DNA of 34,561 nt, from assembly GCA_947428835.1 (NCBI GenBank), contig CANENE010000017.1, forward strand, positions 1 to 34,561, given 5' to 3'. Shown in pieces: positions 1 through 34,561 of this stretch. A program made the position numbers and the translations under genes. Every line of letters starts with the position of its first letter. The first letter of the stretch is position 1. This DNA comes from an uncultured bacterium (GTDB lineage Bacteria; Cyanobacteriota; Vampirovibrionia; Gastranaerophilales; Gastranaerophilaceae). The notes under the pieces were generated by a model that was given only the letters and a program-made list of their open reading frames with translations, ran no database searches and was not told where the DNA came from.

Positions 1-1007
1 CTGATAATCCTGCTTCCATGGCTAATTGGTATCCAATAAATTCTACAGCCTCAACAGGACTAATGCTTTGTGACAATTCGGCATCAGGTGCCGCTGCCTC
101 TAATTGTGCTTACGCGGCTAGCTGCCCGGGTTCTTGTGATGGTAATTGCGGCTCGCACTTTGTGTGGACCAATAGTAATGGTGGTACTACTGCTCAAAGC
201 AGGCGTTTGCGTGGCGGTAGCTGGGTTGTAGAAACAGACGCTAAGTCAAACGCATTTAGTACCAGATGTATATTGGATACTGTTGCAAAAGATTTTGGAA
301 AAGAAGAAGAGAAAAAGCCTGATAACGAGATTTTAACTGATGATGATTGTCCCGATGGATGTAGTGTGTGCACAAAAGAAAAGTGTTATGTTTGTGAATC
401 AGACTATACATTAGATTCAGGAAAATGTACAAAAGAATGCAATCCTGAAACTGTAACGTTAGCAGGTACAAATACAAAAGTAACAAGATTTAATATGGGA
501 GATGACCCAAAGTGCTCAAGAGAGATAATAGAATCGGTGACAGGTGTTAAATTTGTACCTGTAGGTTCGCAATGCTCGGATGATTTGTGCTGTTGGTATG
601 GTACAACAGCCGTTGGTAGCACATGCACAAATGTAGGTAATATATATTCAGGATGCAATAGAACAGTATGCAAATGGTATGCTGCAAAGAAAATATGTGA
701 GTCAATTGGCAAGGGTTGGAAACTTCCTGATACATCAAATTCTATGGCAATTTGGTATCCTGCTAATTCTACATCATCAACAGGCTTGATGCTTTGCGAC
801 CTCTCGGCGTCTAGTGCCTCGGCCTCTCGGTGCACCTACACGGCTAGCTGCCCCGGCTCTTACGGTGGTAGCTGCCGCTCGCACCACGTGTGGGCTCGCA
901 GTGAGAGCGGTGGCGCTGCCCAGTATAGGTACCTGAATGGCGGTGCTTGGTACGAGGATACCCGCGATAAGTCGTACGCCTTTGGCGTCCGCTGTATTAA
1001 AGAATAA
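1..1007 (+). CDS. Secreted Cys-rich protein with two FISUMP/lectin-like domains (5' end missing)
   Basis: The frame is open from the left edge (codons begin at base 3) and stops with TAA at 1005-1007. The ATG at 18 is internal, because the residues before it (DNPAS) match the same place in the second domain. Two homologous domains are visible: one ends near base 270 with 'RCILD', the other runs from about 440 to the stop and ends 'RCIKE'. Between them lies a Cys-rich linker (CPDGC, CTKEKC, CESDYTL). Each domain carries a 'GWKLP'-like element, 'TGLMLCD', 'SCPGS', 'VW' and 'GG-W', as in FISUMP/formylglycine-enzyme-like C-type lectin folds. By analogy with the paralogues at 8278-9381 and 33169 onwards, the missing N-terminus probably holds a type IV prepilin leader, making this an exported surface protein. 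The 3' end has strikingly high GC. The exact ligand is unknown. Confidence 0.8.
   Translation, partial: DNPASMANWYPINSTASTGLMLCDNSASGAAASNCAYAASCPGSCDGNCGSHFVWTNSNGGTTAQSRRLRGGSWVVETDAKSNAFSTRCILDTVAKDFGKEEEKKPDNEILTDDDCPDGCSVCTKEKCYVCESDYTLDSGKCTKECNPETVTLAGTNTKVTRFNMGDDPKCSREIIESVTGVKFVPVGSQCSDDLCCWYGTTAVGSTCTNVGNIYSGCNRTVCKWYAAKKICESIGKGWKLPDTSNSMAIWYPANSTSSTGLMLCDLSASSASASRCTYTASCPGSYGGSCRSHHVWARSESGGAAQYRYLNGGAWYEDTRDKSYAFGVRCIKE
54..269 (+). repeat. Variable-region-like segment A (internal domain)
   Basis: This segment encodes the C-terminal half of the first lectin-like domain and aligns codon for codon with segments B (780-1004) and C (8281-8505, minus). Fixed codons (Trp, Cys, Gly, 'GCTAGCTG') alternate with codons that differ at their first two bases and end in C or T. 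It is less GC-rich than B or C, so it may be an older or inactive copy. Confidence 0.5.
780..1004 (+). repeat. Variable-region-like segment B (DGR-like hypervariable 3' end)
   Basis: This is the last 75 codons of the left-edge gene. By hand count GC is about 61% over 781-1004, against about 39% over 601-720 of the same gene. Adenine falls from about 37% to about 14% (781-960). Differences from segment C concentrate in the first two positions of NNY codons, with Trp, Cys and Gly scaffold codons conserved. This fits adenine-directed mutagenesis of an AAY-rich template. No template copy is in the window. Confidence 0.55.
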
Positions 1008-1048: not shown

Positions 1049-1079
1049 GAGGCTTTAATATATCAAAGCCTCTTTTTTT
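1049..1079 (+). terminator. Rho-independent terminator / post-VR hairpin
   Basis: A perfect 8-bp stem GAGGCTTT/AAAGCCTC (1049-1056 with 1065-1072) is followed by seven T (1073-1079). It lies just after the 34-nt conserved block. It would terminate the left-edge gene, and a hairpin at this place is also what DGR target sites use. Confidence 0.85.
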
Positions 1080-2966: not shown

Positions 2967-4790
2967 CTATTCTCCTTTTTGAATTTCTAATTCTTCTTTT
3001 TGTTTTTCAAGATTATCTACAAATGGCGTATTTTTTTTCATTTGTATTTTTTGAATTTTAATTCCATCCACCTCTAAAATTGTGTAGGTAATGTTTTTAT
3101 CTTCAACGATATCGCCTTTTTCAGGCTCTCTTCCAAGAAGCCCAAAGACATATCCTCCGATGGTTTGGAAGTCTTCATTTGGAATGTCTTGGTCAAAGCG
3201 CTCATTGATATCATCTATGCTTGCTTTAGATAGAACATTTATAATAAAATCATCAACTTTTTCTATTTCTGCATTTTCAACTTTATCAAATTCATCATAA
3301 ATTTCACCTACAATTTCTTCGATAATATCTTCAATAGTAACAATACCTTCAATGCCGCCGTGTTCGTCCACAATAGCTGCTATTTGATTTTTTGAAGAAG
3401 TAAAATCAGATAATAAATCAGAAATAAATTTGTTTTCAGGAATAATCATAAGGTCGCGCGCAAGCGTTTTGATTGAAAAATCTGAAGTTATATTATTATT
3501 CTTAATAACTTTTAAAACATCTTTTGCATTGATTACACCAAGAATGTTATCAACATTATCTTCATAAACGGGAATTCTTGTGTGTCCGGAGCTTATTATT
3601 ATATCAGCAAGTTCGTATATTGAAGCGGAAGCTTCTACAAAGACGATTTCTGTTCTTGGGACCATAATTTCTCTAACAACTGCATTTGCAAAAGAAAAGA
3701 AATTAGATAGCATTGTTGCCTCATGCCCGTCTATGGCACCTATGTTTTGTCCTTCTTTGATTAGTTTTTCAAATTTTTCTTCCCAGTTATCTTCGGCATC
3801 AAATGCTTCCAGTTCAATTGTAACGTGATTTACATTGCGAACGTATTTTTTAATTTTTCTTTCCAGCATCTGCGCGATATCATCGGCATCTTTCATTTGG
3901 GTTTCAGGGTCAACTTCAATTTTCATATTGATTACAAGCCCGCCTGTTCCAAGATCCATTGTCTTAAGCTCGGAAACATTGGTGATACCGTGGATTGTTC
4001 CTGCAACATTTCTTATAATTTCTTCTGTTCTTGGCTGTGCCGATTGAACGGTGAGGCTGTTTACATTGTTTTTAATTAAATAAATTGCAAGTAAAAACAG
4101 AATTAAACCGATAATGATAGAAGCGATAGCATCGGGAATATAGGCATATTGAGCAGGTATTAATTTTGCAATACATAGAGAAATTAAAGCAGTAACTACC
4201 CCTAAAAATGCGGCAGTATCTTCGTACCAAACAAATTTGGTTGTGGGAGACTGGATTTTTCTAATATGTTTTAAAGATATAAGAAATCTTTTAAAAGGAT
4301 TTCTTTCAACAACCTGTGCTTCAACAATAACGGCATCTGTAGCACTGTTTACTGCCCAAGCTTCAAAGCACAGGCTTAAAACAAGAGCAACAGCAATATA
4401 ATTAAAATTATCTAAAAGTTCTTTGGAACTGTGTGCGCCAATTAACTTATCAAACCCGTGGAAAATTGCAACAAATGTACCAATTAACATTAATAATGAT
4501 GCAAACATTGCCCAAACATTAGCTTCCAAACCATATCCAAAGGGATGCTCGCTATCAGCGGGACGCGAACCTCTTTTTATCCCAACCAAAAGACAAATGC
4601 TATTAAAAGAATCAACACCGCTATGGATGGATTCAGCAAGCATTGCCGAACTTTTTGAAAAAAGAAAACAGACAAATTTAATTAGCGCAATACCAATGTT
4701 TGCAACAAACGCCCTTATTACTGCGTTTAGTTTTACTTTTCCTTCGTTATGTTCTATATTTTCCGTTTGTATGTTACTGTCTTCTGTCAT
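2967..4790 (-). CDS. CDF-family cation transporter fused to CBS pair and CorC/HlyC domain
   Basis: 607 residues. Residues ~20-330 are a cation diffusion facilitator: transmembrane helices, 'AESIHSGVDS' near 52-61, 'EHPFGYG' near 81-87, 'WYEDTAAFLG' near 188-197, and a cytoplasmic ferredoxin-like tail near 260-330. The E-D in place of the usual His/Asp of helix 5 recalls the ZnT9-like branch. Residues ~350-500 hold a linker and CBS pair ('MVPRTEIVFV', 'GHTRIPVY', 'VDEHGGIEGIVTIEDIIEEIVGEI' in part), and ~510-580 the CorC/HlyC transporter-associated domain ('QTIGGYVFGLLGR'). The second half is what normally follows a CNNM/DUF21 membrane domain in CorB/CorC proteins, so a CDF pore seems to have replaced it. 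It probably exports a divalent metal (Zn, Fe or Mg) under nucleotide control. It is followed without a gap by gpsA. Confidence 0.9.
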   Translation of the reverse strand: MTEDSNIQTENIEHNEGKVKLNAVIRAFVANIGIALIKFVCFLFSKSSAMLAESIHSGVDSFNSICLLVGIKRGSRPADSEHPFGYGLEANVWAMFASLLMLIGTFVAIFHGFDKLIGAHSSKELLDNFNYIAVALVLSLCFEAWAVNSATDAVIVEAQVVERNPFKRFLISLKHIRKIQSPTTKFVWYEDTAAFLGVVTALISLCIAKLIPAQYAYIPDAIASIIIGLILFLLAIYLIKNNVNSLTVQSAQPRTEEIIRNVAGTIHGITNVSELKTMDLGTGGLVINMKIEVDPETQMKDADDIAQMLERKIKKYVRNVNHVTIELEAFDAEDNWEEKFEKLIKEGQNIGAIDGHEATMLSNFFSFANAVVREIMVPRTEIVFVEASASIYELADIIISSGHTRIPVYEDNVDNILGVINAKDVLKVIKNNNITSDFSIKTLARDLMIIPENKFISDLLSDFTSSKNQIAAIVDEHGGIEGIVTIEDIIEEIVGEIYDEFDKVENAEIEKVDDFIINVLSKASIDDINERFDQDIPNEDFQTIGGYVFGLLGREPEKGDIVEDKNITYTILEVDGIKIQKIQMKKNTPFVDNLEKQKEELEIQKGE

Positions 4791-8277: not shown

Positions 8278-9381
8278 CTATTCTTTTACACAGCGAACAC
8301 TGAAGGCGTATGACTTGTCGAACGCCTTCATGCCCCAAGTACCACCACCCAGGTCTCTGCGCTGAGCGCTGCCGCCACTTTCACTTCTAGCCCACACACC
8401 ACCAGGGCTGCAGTAACCATTGTAAGAACCCGGACAGCTAGCCGCGCCGGCGCATCCGGAGGCAGAAGTACCGGATACAATATAATCGCAAAGCATTAAA
8501 CCTGTGCTTGCAGTAGAATTATTGGGGTACCAACTTGCCATAGAATTAGATGTATCAGGAAGTTTCCACCCATCACCTATGGATTCGCATATCTTTTTTG
8601 CAGCCCACCATTTGCACACTGTTCTATTGCATCCTGAATATATGCCGCCTACATTTGTACAAGTGTTTCCAACAGCAGTTACCCCATACCAGCAGCAAAG
8701 TTCTCCTTCGCATTTTGTGCCAACAGGTACAAAAGTCACTCCCGATATTCCTTCTGCTACGCTTCTTGGGTAGCTTGGGTCATCTCCCATATTAAATCTT
8801 GTTACTTTGGTATTAGTTCCAGCAAGTGTAACCGTTTGAGGATTACAAGAAAGAATACAGCTGTTTGAACTTAAAGTATAATTATCTATACATTTTGAAC
8901 AAGTATTTGCATCAGAATAAGATATGCAATTTGTAATATTCTTAGCACAGAAACCATTGTATCGAGTGTAGCCCAAGTCACAGCTTGAACATGAACCATC
9001 AGAATAAGAAGTACAGTTTGCTATTGGAGTATGACATAAACCATTAAGAAGAATGTAGCCGTCTTTGCATTTTAAACAGGTGCTTTCATTTTTATAGCTT
9101 ATACAATTTGCAATTTCAGATATACATTCGGTTCCATATTTAACATATCCTGTTTTACACATTAAACAGTTGTTTTGTGTACATAGAGCACAATTGCTTG
9201 TGCATTTGTCTCCCGTAAAAAATTCATCAGCAGCATAAGAACTTCCGACTGTAACATCTGAGGCTTTGAGTTTTTTGGTGATAATTGGTGCGAAAGCTCC
9301 TATTAAAAGCGAGATGATAATAAGCGATATTAATAGTTCAATAAGGCTAAACGCCTTTGTACTTAATAATAATTTTTTCAT
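8278..9381 (-). CDS. Type IV pilin-like surface protein with Cys-rich repeats and hypervariable lectin-like C-terminus
   Basis: 367 residues from the ATG at 9381, chosen because it puts a class III prepilin leader first: MKKLLLSTKA, then F+1 and E+5 in 'FSLIELLISL', then a hydrophobic helix and 'FAPIITKKLKASD', shared word for word with the protein at 33169. A frame-consistent ATG at 9417 would bury the leader. Residues ~60-175 are four Cys-rich units of CxxC...CxxGY...GxC form, like the furin/EGF-type repeats of eukaryotic variant surface proteins. Residues ~180-367 form a FISUMP/C-type-lectin-like domain ('CCWYG', 'GCNRTVCKW', 'GDGWKLPDTS', 'GG-W', 'VRCVKE'). A prepilin peptidase should cleave after A10, leaving it in a pseudopilus or the outer surface. 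The last 75 codons (segment C) look hypermutated. Host or prey binding is an inference. Confidence 0.85.
   Translation of the reverse strand: MKKLLLSTKAFSLIELLISLIIISLLIGAFAPIITKKLKASDVTVGSSYAADEFFTGDKCTSNCALCTQNNCLMCKTGYVKYGTECISEIANCISYKNESTCLKCKDGYILLNGLCHTPIANCTSYSDGSCSSCDLGYTRYNGFCAKNITNCISYSDANTCSKCIDNYTLSSNSCILSCNPQTVTLAGTNTKVTRFNMGDDPSYPRSVAEGISGVTFVPVGTKCEGELCCWYGVTAVGNTCTNVGGIYSGCNRTVCKWWAAKKICESIGDGWKLPDTSNSMASWYPNNSTASTGLMLCDYIVSGTSASGCAGAASCPGSYNGYCSPGGVWARSESGGSAQRRDLGGGTWGMKAFDKSYAFSVRCVKE
8281..8505 (-). repeat. Variable-region-like segment C (DGR-like hypervariable 3' end)
   Basis: By hand count GC is about 63% over 8341-8460, with only about 15% adenine on the coding strand. 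It aligns without gaps to segment B over 75 codons. Scaffold codons are kept (TGG, TGC/T, GCTAGCTG, GTGTGGGCT), while many NNY codons differ at both first positions (for example TAT/CGC, TAC/GAC, AAT/GGT, TAC/GGC). Confidence 0.55.
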
Positions 9382-9526
9382 GCTAGTTATTCTAATACCT
9401 AAATTAAAACATGTCAATATATACTAAAAAATTACTTTGTTCATTACCTAAATATTCATATTAAAGGTTTTATTTTATTATTACAAATGTAGGTTTAAAC
9501 TATGTTAGCGCTTTAAGGAACAATAA

Positions 9527-26295: not shown

Positions 26296-28875
26296 ATGAA
26301 AAAGAATGTTGATATAAGTGAATATGTTTCAGAAGCTGACGTTGAAACAAAATATATATATGGAATTTTGTTGGATAAAGTTTTTAAATTTTCGAGCAAT
26401 TTGGTTAACTTCCATGTACCTGTTGAAATAACACAAGGAAGGGAAAAAACGATAAAAGAAGCTGATGTTGTAATAAAAGATGAAAAAGGTGAAAATGTAA
26501 TAGTTATTGATTCAAAAGCACCTTGTGAAAAATTGGAAAATTGGTTTGCACAAGTGGATTCTTATGCGGCTCATTTGGAAGCACCCATATCAATTTTGAG
26601 TAATTACCATAGAACGATAGTCAGAACATATTTAGACGGAAACAAAAAACAAATAATTTTCGACAAGCCAATTGATTTTTTGCTTACGGACAATTTTTTA
26701 AGCTTAAAAGAAGTTGTTTTAAAAAGACTGGAGCAGTTATCTTTGAGTTCTAAAGCTAATATTGTTTGTGAAAATAAAGAAAATAAAACAAAAATTACAG
26801 ATTATCGTAGATTATTTAGACAAATTCATACCAAAATACGCTCAATAGACAAATTAGATCCGACCGCATCGTTTGATGAGTTTTCTAAAGTATTGTTTAT
26901 AAAAATAATTAATGATGTTTTGGAACAAAAAGGTGACAAATTAACGGTTGAAAGAATTAATTGCTATGACAATGAAAAATCAAAGAAATTTTATATTAAT
27001 ACCTGGTTTAAAGAAAAAATTTCCGAATTTTATCCCGGAATATTCGATAGCAATGAAACAGTCAATATTTCTTCAAGAACCTTGTGTATTGCTTTGGAAT
27101 TATTAGATAAGGAATTTGATTTAAAAGATTCAATGGTGGATATAAAAGGCAGAGCGTTTGAAGAATTTTTGCCCAGTCAATTAAGAGGCAAGGGCTTGGG
27201 ACAGTTTTTTACACCAAGACCCATTGTTGATTTTATGGTTGATTTAGCGGATATATCAATTACGGATAAGGTCCTAGATTTCGCTGCCGGTTCCGGCGGT
27301 TTTTTAATCAAGGCATTTGACAAAAAAAGCCAATTAATAAAAGATGTTCAGAAACAATACCTTGATATAATAGGGAAGAGCCGCTTAGATTTATTAGAAG
27401 AAGCAAAATATCAAATTTTTGGAATTGATGCAGAAAAGCGTGCAGTAAGAACAGCAAAGATGAATATGCTTTTATGGGGTGACGGAAAGCAAATACAACA
27501 TGGGAACGGACTGGATATAAAAGATAATAATAACTTGCCGTATTATGCAAAAGAATATGTATCAGGCAATAAAGAAACGGGAGTGGATATAATTTTGGCA
27601 AACCCCCCGTTTGGTTCAAAAGAAGAAGAAAATCAAGATATTTTAAAAAGATATGAGTTGTCCGGAAAAAAGAAATCAAAGGATAATCCCAATCAAATAG
27701 TCAATAAAGCCGAAAAAACAGAGCACTTATTTATAGAAAAAGCATATAAAATGTTAAAGCCAAATGGGAAACTTTTAATTGTTTTGCCTGAGGGTATCTT
27801 TAGCAACAAGAACAGTAAAATTCGTGATTATGTATTAAGTCATTTTACAGTTGAAACAATTGTAAAATTACCAAAACATACTTTTGTAATGTCCGGGGTT
27901 GATACTATCAATACCGTAATTTTGTCAGCCAAAAAAAATACGGTTGAACGTGAATCTGTCATTATAAAATCTGATAAAAATACTTGGATTAATAAAGAAA
28001 ATATAATGTCTGTCAATTTCGTTTCGGTAAATCAAGTAGGTATTGAACCTTCAGGTAAAGCTATAGGGCTTGGTTATGAAACATCTGATTTAAAGTTGGT
28101 TGCAGACAAACTGAAACAGAAAGATTATAAATCCATATTGGCTAATCCATACGAATATGCCGAAATTGAATTTTCGGATGATACTAAAAGTCAAAATTGG
28201 AAGCAATCTATGGTGAAGTTTATTCGAAAGGATTTTATAAGCGTTCCAAAAAGATTAGATCCGACATTCTATTTCTTCAATGAAGAGACAAAAAATATTT
28301 TAAAAACATATACAACCCTTGATATCAAAGCTGAAAATATCAAAAAAATAAAACTTACAGAAGAGGAATTGAACAATGATATAGAAAAAAATTATAAATA
28401 TGTGTCAGTTGTAAAAAATATAAAGGGAAATATAACAGAAACAGAGGAAAAAACCGTAGCTGACATATTAACCACCAAAGAGCTGCCTCAGAAATTGTTT
28501 AAAGGTGATATCGTTTTTAATCCTTATCGTATTAATACCGGTTCTATTATTGTAGTAGATTTAGATGAAGATAATCTGGTAACAAGCCCGTTATATGTAA
28601 TTTTAAGGGGGTTAAATATAAATGCGGAATATTTTGTGCAGTTACTTAAAACTCCTTTTATTAAATATCAAATTCAGGTACTTGCTTCGGGTTCAGTAAG
28701 AGATAGTTTTTCTGCTGAGGATTTAAAATTATTAAAACTGCCTAAAATTTCAATATTAGAGCAAGCAAAAGTGATGAAAGAGATAGAAAGCAATATAGAA
28801 CAAATAGATAAATATAATTCAAAAATAAATGAAAATATAGAAAATATAAATAAAGTTTTAATAAAAAAATCCTAA
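26296..28875 (+). CDS. Single-chain restriction-modification protein (nuclease, N6-adenine methylase, specificity domain)
   Basis: 859 residues. Residues ~15-130 form an HsdR_N-like PD-(D/E)xK nuclease: D57, D72-S-K74 and QVDSY (86-90). Residues ~170-560 are a HsdM-like methylase: helical N-domain, 'GRAFEEFLPSQLRGKGLGQFFTPRP' in two stretches, SAM motif 'LDFAAGSGGF' near 325-335, catalytic NPPF (436-439) and 'LPEGIF'. Residues ~610-859 resemble one target-recognition domain of HsdS followed by a coiled-coil helix ('IEQIDKYNSKINENIENINKV' in part). All three functions sit in one chain, as in type IIG/IIC enzymes, so it would both methylate adenine and cut. No separate hsdR, hsdM or hsdS is adjacent. 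The gene stands alone behind its own promoter and could be horizontally acquired. Confidence 0.9.
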   Translation: MKKNVDISEYVSEADVETKYIYGILLDKVFKFSSNLVNFHVPVEITQGREKTIKEADVVIKDEKGENVIVIDSKAPCEKLENWFAQVDSYAAHLEAPISILSNYHRTIVRTYLDGNKKQIIFDKPIDFLLTDNFLSLKEVVLKRLEQLSLSSKANIVCENKENKTKITDYRRLFRQIHTKIRSIDKLDPTASFDEFSKVLFIKIINDVLEQKGDKLTVERINCYDNEKSKKFYINTWFKEKISEFYPGIFDSNETVNISSRTLCIALELLDKEFDLKDSMVDIKGRAFEEFLPSQLRGKGLGQFFTPRPIVDFMVDLADISITDKVLDFAAGSGGFLIKAFDKKSQLIKDVQKQYLDIIGKSRLDLLEEAKYQIFGIDAEKRAVRTAKMNMLLWGDGKQIQHGNGLDIKDNNNLPYYAKEYVSGNKETGVDIILANPPFGSKEEENQDILKRYELSGKKKSKDNPNQIVNKAEKTEHLFIEKAYKMLKPNGKLLIVLPEGIFSNKNSKIRDYVLSHFTVETIVKLPKHTFVMSGVDTINTVILSAKKNTVERESVIIKSDKNTWINKENIMSVNFVSVNQVGIEPSGKAIGLGYETSDLKLVADKLKQKDYKSILANPYEYAEIEFSDDTKSQNWKQSMVKFIRKDFISVPKRLDPTFYFFNEETKNILKTYTTLDIKAENIKKIKLTEEELNNDIEKNYKYVSVVKNIKGNITETEEKTVADILTTKELPQKLFKGDIVFNPYRINTGSIIVVDLDEDNLVTSPLYVILRGLNINAEYFVQLLKTPFIKYQIQVLASGSVRDSFSAEDLKLLKLPKISILEQAKVMKEIESNIEQIDKYNSKINENIENINKVLIKKS

Positions 28876-28880
28876 AATAA

Positions 28881-29867
28881 TCAGGTGGAGTTTTTATATA
28901 ATTTTTTAATTAAATTTATATCAAAATTTGCCTTTTTTTCAGAAGGGATTTGTTTTAGGATATTTTCAATTTCTTGGGTTTTGTTTAGTCCTTTTTTGAT
29001 TAAAAAACCGGCGTAGTCGCTGTGCACCTTGTATAAGCCTGCAAGATAATAAGGATAAGAATTTCCCCAGGGGTTTTTTAGCCAAAATTCGTTGAGCTCT
29101 TCTTCTATGATATCTTCTAAAACAGAAATATTATATATGTTTTTATCTCCATTTAATATTTCACAAATAAGCTCGCTGCATAGGTTTCCGGCTCCTCTTC
29201 CCATTCCTGCAAGGCTGCAGTCTATAACAATCTGTCTTTCGGTTGGAAAAGAAATAATTTCTCTTGCATTAATAAAAGCACGCTCGTTGTTGTTGTGCAG
29301 ATGAAAACATATTGAAATACTTTTGTCTAAGAAGCTATCAATATTTTTATATATCTCAATAAGTTCTTCTTTATAAAATGTGCCCATTGAATCAACTATG
29401 CTTATTCCTTTTGGCTTTAGTTCAGATATAGTCTTAATCAAATTAATATATTCTTCTTTTTCATATTCTTGTATAAAAACAGGGTTGATAAAAAGCTTGT
29501 AGCCTTTATCTATAATTTTTTTGCAGTCTGAAAACGCTTTTTTAGCAGCGTTTTTTTTAAAAATATATCTTAAATTGATGTCTTTTTCTTTTGCCTTTGG
29601 AAGATTTTGAAGGTCAAAATCACCTTGTTTCATCATTAAGAAAAATTTAGATAAATCATAATTTTGAGTATATTTTGAAGCTTCATCAATATTTAAAAAA
29701 ATACTTGTCTGCCGAAAGCTTTTGTTGTTTTTTAAAAAACCAAGCTCAATAAAATCTATGTTAGATAAAATTAAGTTATCAATGATTGCTTTTGTTTTAT
29801 TTTCTCCAAAAGCAAAATCAACTATATATCCGCCATCTCTTAATGTGCAATCAAGTAATTTTATCAT
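28881..29867 (-). CDS. DRE-TIM aldolase/acyltransferase-like enzyme (HMGL-like)
   Basis: 328 residues. A TIM barrel of the HMG-CoA lyase / isopropylmalate synthase / hydroxy-oxovalerate aldolase superfamily. 'LLDCTLRDGGY' (4-14) supplies D6 and the R10-D11 pair; 'HLHNN' (189-193) gives the metal-binding histidines; 'VDSMG' near 158-162 and 'GMGRGAGNLCSE' near 221-232 complete the site. The C-terminal communication or acyl-CoA-binding domain is absent, so an aldol-type cleavage or condensation is more likely than LeuA-like synthesis. Relatives of this size are often found in surface-polysaccharide loci, but there is no such locus here. No ribosome site is visible. The gene is convergent with the restriction gene (5-nt gap) and divergent from the HNH gene. 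Confidence 0.82.
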   Translation of the reverse strand: MIKLLDCTLRDGGYIVDFAFGENKTKAIIDNLILSNIDFIELGFLKNNKSFRQTSIFLNIDEASKYTQNYDLSKFFLMMKQGDFDLQNLPKAKEKDINLRYIFKKNAAKKAFSDCKKIIDKGYKLFINPVFIQEYEKEEYINLIKTISELKPKGISIVDSMGTFYKEELIEIYKNIDSFLDKSISICFHLHNNNERAFINAREIISFPTERQIVIDCSLAGMGRGAGNLCSELICEILNGDKNIYNISVLEDIIEEELNEFWLKNPWGNSYPYYLAGLYKVHSDYAGFLIKKGLNKTQEIENILKQIPSEKKANFDINLIKKLYKNST

Positions 29868-29929
29868 ATTTTGATTTTATCATATTTGGGCAAAAAATAA
29901 TTTTTTTAAATTTTATACAAACAGTCATT

Positions 29930-31090
29930 ATGAAAGTCAGTTTAAATTTATCAAATTTTCAATATTACAGCCCCAAACAAATAACGGCAGACAGAAGCGC
30001 AAAAACTTCTTTGAATTCTGCCGGGCGAAATAGGAATTCTATTAATATTTCTTGTAATTATAATAATTTAATTAACTTTACTTCAAACAACTTTCGTACA
30101 GATAAACTTGAAGGGTTGAGTTGTCCTTTTTGTGAACATATGATGCTTGCAACTTCACAGGCAGCTGAATTTGTTTCTTTTGTTGAAGATTTGAGAGGTA
30201 AAGACCTCATAAAAGCACTTGAAAAGTATGAAAATGATAAAAATATTTCAGATTGCCGCAGTGGAAAAACAATCTATAGACCAATAGAACAGGATATTGT
30301 TGAAATTTTAAAACAATTGGCATCAAAGCATCAAGATGCGAATATAAAGAAATTGGCCGTTTTGGGTGACCAATTTTTAAGGCTAAAAAAACATAAAGTT
30401 CCAATAAGTGCAAGCGAAGATGTTCAGCGTTGGTTTCAAAGTGCGGCATCTAAAAAAACATCATCTAAAAATATTGCAGAAAAATTAATATCTCCTTCAA
30501 AAATAACTGTAGAGCATCTTGTTCCAAAATCTAAAAAAGGCGGTAATGCAAAAAGTAATTTTATTTGTGATTGTTCGAATTGCAATGCCGAAAGAGATAC
30601 TTTGGATTTTTATACATGGATGAAAAAGTATCCAAATTTGAAAGAAAATATAGAACAACAATTGGAAGATATAAAACAATTAATCGAAAAAGATCAATTG
30701 CCGCTATGTTATCGAGATTATATAAAACAAGTTATAGGCACTATCTTCAAAATATCAAAAGGCGAGCTTGAGCTTGATTATCCTAAGCAATTTGATGAAT
30801 TTGAAGAAAATGTTGATAATATAATTCAAAAAAGAAAGGAAATTGTAGAAAACCTCAGACAAGCCCAGAAAGATTATAAAATTGAAATGCAGCAAAATTA
30901 TCAAAAAATTGAAGAGCTAAAGCAAATGGAAGAAAAGAAAGCTTATACGCAGGAGCTTGAAGAACTGCTGGAATCAACTTATCGTTTGAGTGAAATTGTA
31001 GAAAATAATGAGGAAGTATTAAAAAATCTGCGATTTTTTGATTCAATAAAGCAATCCAAATTCGAAAGAATAACAGCGGAATTCTATTGA
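29930..31090 (+). CDS. HNH endonuclease-like protein, paralogue 1
   Basis: 386 residues from the ATG at 29930, chosen because 'MKVSLNLSNF' matches the starts of its neighbours; the frame is open further upstream but unlike coding sequence. An unstructured N-terminus with 'LINFTS' (48-52) precedes a zinc-binding CPFC (65-68) and a helical spacer. The HNH core follows: E195-H196 in 'VEHLVPKSKKGG', N210, then C213, C215, C218 and N219 in 'ICDCSNCNAER'. The two CxxC pairs should bind one structural zinc. The C-terminal ~150 residues are a long coiled coil. It is a metal-dependent DNA nuclease by fold; target and role are unknown. A second, longer copy follows 50 nt downstream in the same direction. 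Confidence 0.82.
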   Translation: MKVSLNLSNFQYYSPKQITADRSAKTSLNSAGRNRNSINISCNYNNLINFTSNNFRTDKLEGLSCPFCEHMMLATSQAAEFVSFVEDLRGKDLIKALEKYENDKNISDCRSGKTIYRPIEQDIVEILKQLASKHQDANIKKLAVLGDQFLRLKKHKVPISASEDVQRWFQSAASKKTSSKNIAEKLISPSKITVEHLVPKSKKGGNAKSNFICDCSNCNAERDTLDFYTWMKKYPNLKENIEQQLEDIKQLIEKDQLPLCYRDYIKQVIGTIFKISKGELELDYPKQFDEFEENVDNIIQKRKEIVENLRQAQKDYKIEMQQNYQKIEELKQMEEKKAYTQELEELLESTYRLSEIVENNEEVLKNLRFFDSIKQSKFERITAEFY

Positions 31091-31140: not shown

Positions 31141-32622
31141 ATGAGAGTCAGTTTTAATACATTAAATACACTGAACCATTATCGAAGGATGCCTCAAAAG
31201 CCAAAAAGTGCCCAAAATCCTTCTATATATAATGCTGAAAATTCAAAAGTCCTCACCCCCCCCTCTTTATATAATTGCCTAATCAATTTTGCTTCAAGCA
31301 AAGAGAGTTTTGAAGTAACAAGATTGGCGGGGCTCACCTGCCCTATTTGCGAGCAGTTGATGCTAAATCTTTCCCAGATAGAAGAATTTGTAAGATTTAT
31401 TTCAAATAAAAAAGGAAAAGACCTTAAAGCCGCTCTTGAAAAATATGAAGATGACAGAAACATCTCAAAGCATGCCTTTGGAAAAACAATATATAAATCC
31501 GAAGAGCAGGAAGTCATTGATATTCTTAAAGAAATGACTAAGAAATATCCAAATTGCAACTTAAAGCAGCTTGTTAATATTAAAGCGACGGAATTAGGCA
31601 GGCGCAATGCTCAATATATAAAAACCTCAATGGGAGAAGCCGTTAACCATTTCTTTGTAGGTAGCGCAGATAAGAACTTGAATTCGGAACAAATTGCCTA
31701 TAAATTGATTTTTCCTTCTATGGCAACAAAAGAACATCTTGTGCCAAGAGCAAAAAAAGGTAAAGATTCTTTTTCTAATTATCTTTGTGACTGTTATAAC
31801 TGTAATGCAGACAGGCATGAGCTTAGTTTTGATAAGTGGATGCAGGATTTTCCAAATTTAAAACATAATCTTGATAAACATTTTGCCACTTTAGCGCACG
31901 AAATAGAAGCAGGAAGACTGCCTGTTGAATATTGTGAATATATAAGAGATGTTCAAAATACCATTTATCAAATTTCAAATGAAAAAATAAAAGTTTTGCT
32001 TCCCGAAAAACTTTGTGAAATTGAAAAAAATTGTCTGGAAAAACAAGATGCAAGAAGAAAAACCGTAGTTGAGCTTAATATGAGACACAAGCAAGATAAA
32101 GACAGACAAGAAGAGATATCTAAAAAAATTGCAAGACTTAAAAATAATGAAGAATATAAGAATATTGCAAAATACATTTCCCTGATAAAGGCATCTGAAA
32201 TAAATGCGGAAAAATTATTCCAAGCGCAAAGAGAGCTTGATTTTCTTCAAAAGAAAAGAAAAAATGAAAAAAGAGACAAAATGAAACAAAGGCAAGACGC
32301 AAGAATTAATACTTTAAATTCTGAAATTGCGAGATATCAAAAAAGGAAAAACAAGCTTAAAGTCTTGAAACAGGAATTATTTAATCTAATTGAGCCTTTG
32401 GTTAAACTGCAGAATTTAAGTTCTGATGACCCTGATTATGTGATAAAAGCTAAAAAGCGAGACAATCTTAAGGCAATATATGATGAGATTTTGGATTTGG
32501 AAGAAAGAAAAATGCTTTTAAAAGAAACTATTAGAAGTAATGCCTGGATTTTAACAAAGCTCAAAGACTATGAAGATATGAGTGAAGATGAATTTAAGAA
32601 ATTAGTCGGCAAATTTTATTAA
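31141..32622 (+). CDS. HNH endonuclease-like protein, paralogue 2, with C8 tract
   Basis: 493 residues. It aligns with the upstream paralogue through the N-terminus ('MRVSFN', 'YNCLINFAS' at 44-52), CPIC (67-70), the conserved 'GKDL-AALEKYEDDRNIS' segment, and the HNH core ('KEHLVPRAKKGKDS', E198-H199, N213, CDC and C221-N222). It then extends about 100 residues further as highly charged coiled coil (about 300-485). The T39-P40-P41 codons are made by a C8 run (31256-31263), where slippage would stop translation before the nuclease. No ribosome site is evident in the 50-nt gap, so expression may depend on the upstream gene. The function is unknown beyond a likely DNA nuclease. Confidence 0.82.
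   Translation: MRVSFNTLNTLNHYRRMPQKPKSAQNPSIYNAENSKVLTPPSLYNCLINFASSKESFEVTRLAGLTCPICEQLMLNLSQIEEFVRFISNKKGKDLKAALEKYEDDRNISKHAFGKTIYKSEEQEVIDILKEMTKKYPNCNLKQLVNIKATELGRRNAQYIKTSMGEAVNHFFVGSADKNLNSEQIAYKLIFPSMATKEHLVPRAKKGKDSFSNYLCDCYNCNADRHELSFDKWMQDFPNLKHNLDKHFATLAHEIEAGRLPVEYCEYIRDVQNTIYQISNEKIKVLLPEKLCEIEKNCLEKQDARRKTVVELNMRHKQDKDRQEEISKKIARLKNNEEYKNIAKYISLIKASEINAEKLFQAQRELDFLQKKRKNEKRDKMKQRQDARINTLNSEIARYQKRKNKLKVLKQELFNLIEPLVKLQNLSSDDPDYVIKAKKRDNLKAIYDEILDLEERKMLLKETIRSNAWILTKLKDYEDMSEDEFKKLVGKFY
31256..31263 (+). repeat. C8 tract in the second HNH gene
   Basis: Eight C in a row encode part of T-P-P at codons 39-41. The gene is in frame with eight; seven or nine would shift the frame before the catalytic core. 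It matches the C8 tract at 6335-6342. Confidence 0.9.
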
Positions 32623-33168: not shown

Positions 33169-34561
33169 ATGATTGAAATTTTTAAAAAAGCCCAAAATAG
33201 GGTTAATTTTGGCGCATTTTCTTTAATTGAAATTTTGATATCATTAATTATTATTTCTCTTCTCGTTGCAGCATTTGCGCCGATTATTACAAAGAAGCTT
33301 AAAGCATCAGATATTTCAATAGGTTCTTTTGGAAGCGGAAGTAATGTAAATATGACATTAGAAAGACAAGTTACAAAAGAAGATTGCGATAAATATGATG
33401 CTTTATTTATTCCTGCTGCAATGAACGGAGGGACAAGAAACCTTTGTGTTACTAAATACAATATGGGAGATAATGACCTTCCACTGGCCGACAGTGTTAA
33501 AAAATTAACTGTCGGAAATACATGTACCGATAAAGATAAAGGAAACTGCTGCTGGAGCGGCAAAACTGCAGCAAGCTGCGGAAATAGCGGAAATGAAGGA
33601 AGTGATTATTCAGGATGCAGTAGAACAGCCTGTCAATATCAAGCGGCAAACGCCAGCTGTGCCGCTTACGCTCCAAATAATGAAAATGAAGGAAGTTGGA
33701 GATTGCCGGTTAAAGAAGAACTTGGTTATTGGGGGAGCAATCTTGCATCTATAAATAATAATAAAGGCAAAGATGGTCTTCAACTTTGTGGCTATCAGTC
33801 ATCAAATAAAGGGTCTGTTGAATGTGAAAGTCTTACAGGTGGCTGCCTGGGTTCGCAAAATGGAGGATGTAACCCTCATAGCGTTTGGTCTATGACACAA
33901 GGAAGCGACGATAGCAGCTTTAATATGTATTATCTAGACGGCAACAGTTTTAAAAATTCTATAAACAACGCCAATTATGCTTTTTCAACAAGATGTGTAT
34001 TGGATAAAATAGCTGTAGATATCTCTGAGCTTCCAAATGGTGGCGGAATAAAAGATCCGACCACCGACCCTTTTTATGGAGAACCAAAAGACCAAGCCGA
34101 TTGCGATAAGATTGTCGGGATATTCATTGGTAAAAAAATGTCAGGAGCAAACAGAAATATTTGTGTTTCTAAATACAACGTAGGAGACGCAGGTCCCGAT
34201 GGCTTTGGCCCGCCTATACCCGAAAGCTTTAGCCAATATATAATGTCAATTGGTCAATCTTGTCCATATAATGGCCATTGCTGTTGGAAAGGCAAAACTG
34301 CGGGCACCTGCGGCATCACTGGTAATGCCGGAGCTAACTACTCAGGATGCAACAGAACAGTCTGTCAATGGCATGCAGCAAATAGTGCTTGCAGAGAGTA
34401 CAATGCCTTTGGTGCAACGGCTGTTGGTGCCTGGAGGTTACCAAAAAGCTCAGAACTTACTGTTTGGGCTCAATATATGGGAACAATCAATAATAATAAA
34501 GGTCCTGATGGCCTCCAGTTGTGTTCGCATTATGGTAGTTCGGGTTTTGTACAGTGTGAAA
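33169..34561 (+). CDS. Type IV pilin-like surface protein with tandem FISUMP-like domains (3' end missing)
   Basis: The frame is open from ATG 33169 (AAAAGGT upstream) to the right edge, 464 residues without a stop. A prepilin leader ends at A16, with F+1 and E+5 in 'FSLIEILISL', then the helix and 'FAPIITKKLKASD' shared with the protein at 8278-9381. Two tandem Cys-rich domains follow, at about residues 73-280 and from about 312 to the edge. Each has 'CVTKYNMGD'- or 'CVSKYNVGD'-like, 'CCWSGKTA', 'YSGC-RT-CQ', 'W-RLP' and 'GLQLC' words. The first ends 'FSTRCVLD', like the internal domain of the left-edge gene. Unlike the other two, its variable-like part is ordinary AT-rich sequence rather than GC-rich. 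It has a strong promoter and a neighbouring XRE gene. Confidence 0.85.
   Translation, partial: MIEIFKKAQNRVNFGAFSLIEILISLIIISLLVAAFAPIITKKLKASDISIGSFGSGSNVNMTLERQVTKEDCDKYDALFIPAAMNGGTRNLCVTKYNMGDNDLPLADSVKKLTVGNTCTDKDKGNCCWSGKTAASCGNSGNEGSDYSGCSRTACQYQAANASCAAYAPNNENEGSWRLPVKEELGYWGSNLASINNNKGKDGLQLCGYQSSNKGSVECESLTGGCLGSQNGGCNPHSVWSMTQGSDDSSFNMYYLDGNSFKNSINNANYAFSTRCVLDKIAVDISELPNGGGIKDPTTDPFYGEPKDQADCDKIVGIFIGKKMSGANRNICVSKYNVGDAGPDGFGPPIPESFSQYIMSIGQSCPYNGHCCWKGKTAGTCGITGNAGANYSGCNRTVCQWHAANSACREYNAFGATAVGAWRLPKSSELTVWAQYMGTINNNKGPDGLQLCSHYGSSGFVQCE

Follow-up and report, generated by a model that had tools for sequence, protein, structure and literature searches.

A candidate variable repeat in a gut Gastranaerophilales genome and the diversity-generating retroelement that probably diversifies it

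Target genes and repeat copies in the window

The 34,561-nucleotide stretch analysed here (the window) corresponds to contig C17 in a draft assembly of 1.80 Mb that comprises 24 contigs and has a completeness of 97.7%. It opens with a gene at 3-1007 on the forward strand, whose 5' end lies beyond the contig and whose product, according to its open reading frame and domain matches, contains two C-type-lectin-like domains. Within the coding sequence of the C-terminal domain, at 793-995 on the same strand, lies a putative fresh variable repeat (VR) belonging to a diversity-generating retroelement (DGR). These 203 bases are 89% identical to a non-coding repeat on contig C3 that occupies the position of a template repeat (TR), hereafter the TR-locus copy, and differ from it by 15 nonsynonymous and 2 silent codon changes. 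The first domain contains an older, drifted homologue of the VR (69-269, forward strand; 75% DNA match) that differs silently from the TR-locus copy at 14 codons. Positions 1-55 of the window are common to the end of contig C23 and the start of contig C6, and C23 encodes a prepilin N terminus in the matching frame. As the window tip fits both contigs, the upstream half of gene 3-1007 has no unique assignment. Reading the sequence 42 bases past the stop codon, we found an 8-bp inverted repeat (GAGGCTTT/AAAGCCTC) and then a run of T residues (1049-1072, forward strand). In DGRs, VR and TR differ at their 3' ends (IMH versus IMH*) and a hairpin follows the IMH; the hairpin predicted here could be either an ordinary terminator or a DGR-target hairpin.

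Two further genes of the window belong to the same family. A complete prepilin-type protein of 379 amino acids with one C-terminal lectin-like domain is encoded at 8278-9417 on the reverse strand, as indicated by profile matches to N_methyl (E = 2.5e-4, slightly below the Pfam cut-off) and TIGR02532 (18.2 bits, cut-off 16.3). Its VR (8290-8490, reverse strand) is old and drifted, with a 70% DNA match and 20 silent differences to the TR-locus copy. The other, at 33169-34561 on the forward strand, is truncated by the contig end, and its prepilin-type product (N_methyl, E = 7.6e-4) has Lcl_C/DUF1566-like domains arranged in tandem (Lcl_C, E = 1.9e-8); a DNA search of the assembly with positions 700-1010 returned no match between this gene and the TR. 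Elsewhere in the window, 26296-28875 encodes a large protein that resembles an N6-adenine DNA methylase with a restriction-type N terminus. The adjoining paralogues at 29786-31090 and 31141-32622 both start with CPxCEx(2)ML and share a motif, EHLVP(K/R)(S/A)KKG...CDCxNCNA, that recalls HNH-type nucleases.

Exact counts place the GC content of gene 3-1007 at 39.2% in positions 601-720 and 61.2% in positions 781-1004, in line with the jump from about 39% to about 61% counted by hand in a preliminary description of this DNA. The accompanying drop in adenine is real, from 36.7% to 15.6%, the latter slightly above the 14% or so first given. Among 224-base stretches, GC content reaches its maximum for the window (62%) at position 769, against a mean of 33% (s.d. 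5.4 points). The same description had located the hypermutated cassette at 780-1004, which is the right region, with the homologous cassette itself spanning about 793-995. It had also aligned the 75 codons of 781-1004 with those of 8281-8505 on the reverse strand; this alignment is indeed gapless codon for codon, but the partner was poorly chosen, as a copy that has drifted by 20 silent codon differences is unsuited to a test for hypermutation.

A retroelement core on contig C3 and the pattern of variation

Within the same assembly (G000), a DGR core lies on contig C3 at approximately 76,830-80,310 and comprises a target gene with a VR, an Avd gene, a reverse transcriptase (RT) gene and the non-coding repeat at the TR position. 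The RT gene (77,182-78,351) is full-length and is the sole RVT_1 gene found in a whole-assembly family search (57.3 bits). Its product has the motifs IGNLTSQ and YVDD; in DGR-type RTs, IGxxxSQ replaces the QGxxxSP of group II enzymes and is accompanied by YxDD. The best PDB match is the RT of the BPP-1 DGR (8ub7, E = 9e-37), compared with E values of 1e-8 or worse for group II and retron-like enzymes. The search for an IGxxxSQ-type RT that had been proposed as a check on the DGR interpretation therefore returned one full-length enzyme in this very assembly. Upstream of the RT gene lies that of a 144-residue Avd protein, which scores 48.8 bits against PF22296 (bAvd; cut-off 40) and 56.1 bits against the NCBIfam Avd model, below the cut-off of 80 for that model. 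The local target, upstream of Avd, is a 450-residue prepilin-type protein (TIGR02532, 19.7 bits versus a cut-off of 16.3; PF07963, 22.3 versus 21.2) with a VR at the 3' end of its gene. A 143-base direct repeat, 89% identical between its two copies, is also present at this locus (L022 8354-8496 and 9170-9312), with one copy just upstream of the local target gene.

The TR-locus copy lies at approximately 76,833-77,042 of C3 (L022 4,834-5,042, minus strand), about 140 bases 3' of the RT stop codon. It is non-coding, with a longest open frame of 74 amino acids, and is 92% identical to the local VR. The 3' ends of the VRs and of the TR have GGCGTCCGCTGT in common, which is followed by GAATAAA in the VRs and by TAATTTTT at the TR locus. 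The presence of an RT, Avd and a repeat at the TR position in one assembly upholds the DGR interpretation. The second expectation, a template repeat matching the VR except at adenines, was borne out in part: a non-coding repeat directly follows the RT gene, but its adenines at the variable codons have been replaced.

Searching the assembly with positions 700-1010 recovered the query, the TR-locus copy and copies at eight or more other places (at least eight). Three VRs, those on C3, at 793-995 of the window and at C6b, are fresh, with 13-15 nonsynonymous and 1-3 silent codon differences each to the TR-locus copy, whereas five others (C6a, window 69-269, window 8290-8490, C6c and C7) have 14-22 silent differences; a copy on C1 was left out of the counts. 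By this sequence comparison, the assembly has at least six older, drifted homologous copies in addition to three VRs that appear to have been recently overwritten. Among the three fresh VRs, 31 of 198 columns are variable, distributed 16:12:3 over the three codon positions. Variation in fourteen NNY codons affects the first two bases and leaves the third constant, and with codon positions 1 and 2 accounting for 28 of the 31 variable columns, the NNY pattern noted earlier holds. Thirteen of these 14 codons align with AAC or AAT in the TR of one related species; VR differences that do not derive from adenine fall in codons 13, 14, 16, 20, 29 and 40. Only about ten of the 96 stretches related to the lectin-like domain match the TR at the DNA level. 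All 96 lie within a 1.8-Mb genome, many of them in proteins that have tandem domains and reach about 1,000 amino acids. The VR core had no exact match in the viral contigs searched.

Adenine loss accounts for about 7 points of the GC jump; most of the jump reflects the GC-rich codon choice of the template. The window VR has a GC content of 64.6% and the remainder of gene 3-1007 one of 36.8%. The TR-locus copy is at 59% (117 of 198 bases) and, by arithmetic, would be at 57% with all fourteen NNY codons reverted to AAY. These values assign about 20 points to template composition and about 7 to adenine loss.

To place the element among its relatives, we compared RT genes and repeat pairs across genomes. 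The C3 RT has matches at E = 0.001 or better in 13 of 58 near genomes, eight of which, the window's own excepted, are strong (53-64% identity), and an RT match was found in 50 of 286 genomes of the order. Close RT matches also occur in a genome collection under the label Candidatus Gastranaerophilales. In DGRs, adenines of the template are replaced by any base. At related loci with a TR/VR pair inside the fetched stretch, the mismatches facing a template A numbered 24 of 26 (L033), 13 of 14 (L088), 19 of 20 (L094), 13 of 16 (L038) and 6 of 7 (L031), and an older pair (L032) had 20 of 45. At L036, all 11 mismatches are at a template A, with the template on the other strand: read with the RT forward, the pair at 2,680-2,819 and 4,004-4,143 has its template opposite the RT strand, so that 11 of 11 mismatches face T on that strand. 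When seven pairs are pooled, AAY codons had their first A changed in 69% of cases (63 of 91) and their second in 33% (30 of 91), compared with 11% for other adenines at positions 1 and 2, 16% for third-position adenines and 5% for non-A bases. Two relatives have 12 and 14 TR-like copies, suggesting that many targets per DGR are usual in the genus.

Taken together, the RT, Avd, the non-coding repeat, the codon pattern and the adenine rule in relatives indicate, with a probability of about 93%, that 793-995 is a VR of the DGR with its core on C3, and that this element diversifies the lectin-like tips of prepilin-type proteins. By analogy with the DGR family, RNA from the TR locus would be copied by an RT-Avd complex with errors at adenines, mostly those of AAC and AAT codons, and the mutagenic cDNA would replace the 3' end of target genes, homing at the 3' end of the VR. 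Complete targets have an N-terminal prepilin motif. The targets are predicted to be secreted or pilus-associated proteins of the prepilin type, with the variable residues in a C-terminal C-type-lectin-like domain, and most likely constitute an adhesin repertoire. An AlphaFold model of the C-terminal domain (pLDDT 77.5) has structural matches at Z 6-7.6, below Z 8 and with Foldseek E values above 0.001, to the Bd2740 C terminus, snake lectins, Legionella Lcl, TvpA (2y3c) and formylglycine-type enzymes. All top matches of the model, at Z values too low to establish the fold by themselves (at most 7.6), are of the lectin or formylglycine-enzyme types originally suggested for this C terminus.

A template repeat that resembles its variable repeats

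In relatives, an A-rich TR adjoins the RT gene and has AAC or AAT at 12-13 of the 14 variable codons. The TR-locus copy on C3 has them at 2 of 14, with TAC, CAC, CAT, CTT or TAT elsewhere; the three fresh VRs have AAY at 6, 1 and 3 of 14. Only 1 of 16 mismatches between the TR-locus copy and its neighbouring VR faces A, compared with 24 of 26 in L033. No better template was found among the other copies in the assembly by DNA search. The stretch between the RT gene and the repeat is conserved with the TR leaders of relatives (AAAAWTCGTCG and more), and this leader, along with a 3' flank unlike the GAATAAA of VRs, identifies the C3 copy as the TR locus and not as a target gene.

We rejected the TR-locus copy in its present form as the maker of the present VRs, because fresh VRs retain A at positions occupied by T or C in that copy (for example, in codons 3, 48, 53 and 55 of the C3 VR). 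The retained adenines suggest instead that the fresh VRs came from an earlier, A-bearing template, in which case the change in the TR would be younger than the homing events that produced them. An RT that mutates T was also considered and rejected: 12 of 16 mismatches of the local pair are at T, but the other fresh VRs have 9 of 23 and 9 of 22, and mutation is at A in every related locus whose TR/VR pair is clear and recent.

We give even odds to the proposal that the template repeat of this DGR was overwritten, whether through the element's own machinery or from a VR, such that the TR is not a fixed master copy. The likeliest origin of the VR-like TR would be mutated cDNA or VR sequence copied into it, either by cDNA homing into the TR itself or by recombination that moved VR sequence there. 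Adenines retained outside AAY codons are uninformative as to self-homing versus VR-to-TR conversion, as they are rarely changed in relatives too (11-16%). In the TR-locus copy, the first base is T or C at twelve codons and second-position adenines are kept at 13 of 14. With this TR, the element could diversify its targets further, within smaller sets of amino acids.

A VR-like template could also be an artefact of assembly, with VR reads threaded into an A-rich TR or the true TR residing in a left-out contig. The A-rich TRs of relatives, the breaking of contigs at VR-bearing genes and the draft state of the assembly (24 contigs, 97.7% completeness) all fit such an error. Several features of the contigs argue against it. 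The overlap between contig tips is exactly 55 bases at nearly all junctions found (1 of 33 is partial). We attribute this to assembly from a de Bruijn graph at k = 55, in which case every 56-mer should be read-supported. The longest exact match between the TR locus and any VR locus compared is 39 bases, and the first and last altered codons lie 8 and about 20 bases, respectively, from unique TR flank, placing each junction inside a single 56-mer. Threading of VR reads is thus improbable, and overall we regard an artefact as unlikely.

Gene conversion among adhesin paralogues, without reverse transcription, could likewise produce mosaic repeats. The genome offers many paralogous domains for such exchange in its 96 related stretches, and codons 12-16 of 793-995 share a block of non-adenine changes with C6a. 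Conversion leaves unexplained, however, why variation is restricted to NNY codons with a fixed third base, why a non-coding copy sits beside RT and Avd genes and why orthologous loci follow the adenine rule, and we consider it very improbable as the source of the pattern. Least credible of all is a horizontally acquired, GC-rich foreign 3' end without hypermutation, which would fit the GC jump of more than 20 points inside one gene but not the recurrence of the same cassette in three genes and the TR locus of one genome, in copies that differ almost only at amino-acid-changing positions (28:3 for codon positions 1 and 2 versus 3); these copies refute it.

Relation to known diversity-generating retroelements

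The DGR assigned to C3 resembles that of Bordetella phage BPP-1 (mtd, avd, TR, brt) in its type of RT, in Avd, in having the TR by the RT gene and in a VR that ends the gene for a C-type-lectin-type protein. It differs in being chromosomal with many remote targets, in the TR following the RT gene (in BPP-1 it precedes it) and in a TR-locus copy that is VR-like, whereas the TR of BPP-1 'remains unchanged' (PMC3240598). The DGR of Treponema denticola, with its target TvpA, is likewise chromosomal and has several remote targets and a lectin-like variable domain (PMC4891356); the prepilin N terminus of the targets and a TR without most adenines at variable codons set the present element apart from it. 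Cyanobacterial DGRs also combine one core with scattered paralogous C-type-lectin targets and relic copies, but their targets are mostly predicted cytosolic signalling proteins and not of the prepilin type (PMC7517822); a text search of that study found neither Melainabacteria nor Vampirovibrio. DUF1566 (Lcl_C) has been described as the most frequent Pfam domain among DGR targets, and pilin-like contexts have been noted for it (PMC6642488). In keeping with such targets, a member of the present family matches Lcl_C, the C-terminal domain of Legionella Lcl is among the fold matches and DUF1566 has been reported in structures of putative pilins. The variable domain here differs in falling below the Pfam threshold, including that of Lcl_C, and in having about 96 related stretches in 1.8 Mb.

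Full-text literature searches returned no paper naming Gastranaerophilales with diversity-generating elements and none on Melainabacteria with DGRs. With this element, the gut Gastranaerophilales, uncultured bacteria related to cyanobacteria, would gain a DGR that has many prepilin-type targets. It appears ordinary in kind, and the apparently rewritten template is the novel lead. Published accounts describe a TR that stays unaltered and so allows diversification to be repeated (PMC3240598, PMC10907252), and our literature search found no report of mutated TRs. If the template was rewritten, its repertoire would have shifted from AAY codons (Asn; about 15 amino acids reachable) to TAY and CAY codons (Tyr and His; about 4 each), and a ratchet of adenine loss could follow, ending diversification. 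A natural TR with VR-type substitutions would offer a way to study failing TR protection and the ageing or re-coding of DGRs.

In a global survey, at least 75% of mismatches faced A in almost all cases; the genuine exceptions were 7 clusters (PMC8144416), and 26 DGRs have been described with pairs showing only non-A changes (PMC6642488). Cases like the apparently rewritten TR may be hidden among these clusters and pairs. Among the relatives studied here, L047 contains tandem TR-locus copies with the same leader (1,851-2,228 and 2,285-2,665, RT forward), of which the copy near the RT gene has AAY at 8 of 14 codons and the far copy at 13 of 14. This locus is possibly a second case of an altered template, or simply holds a second template.
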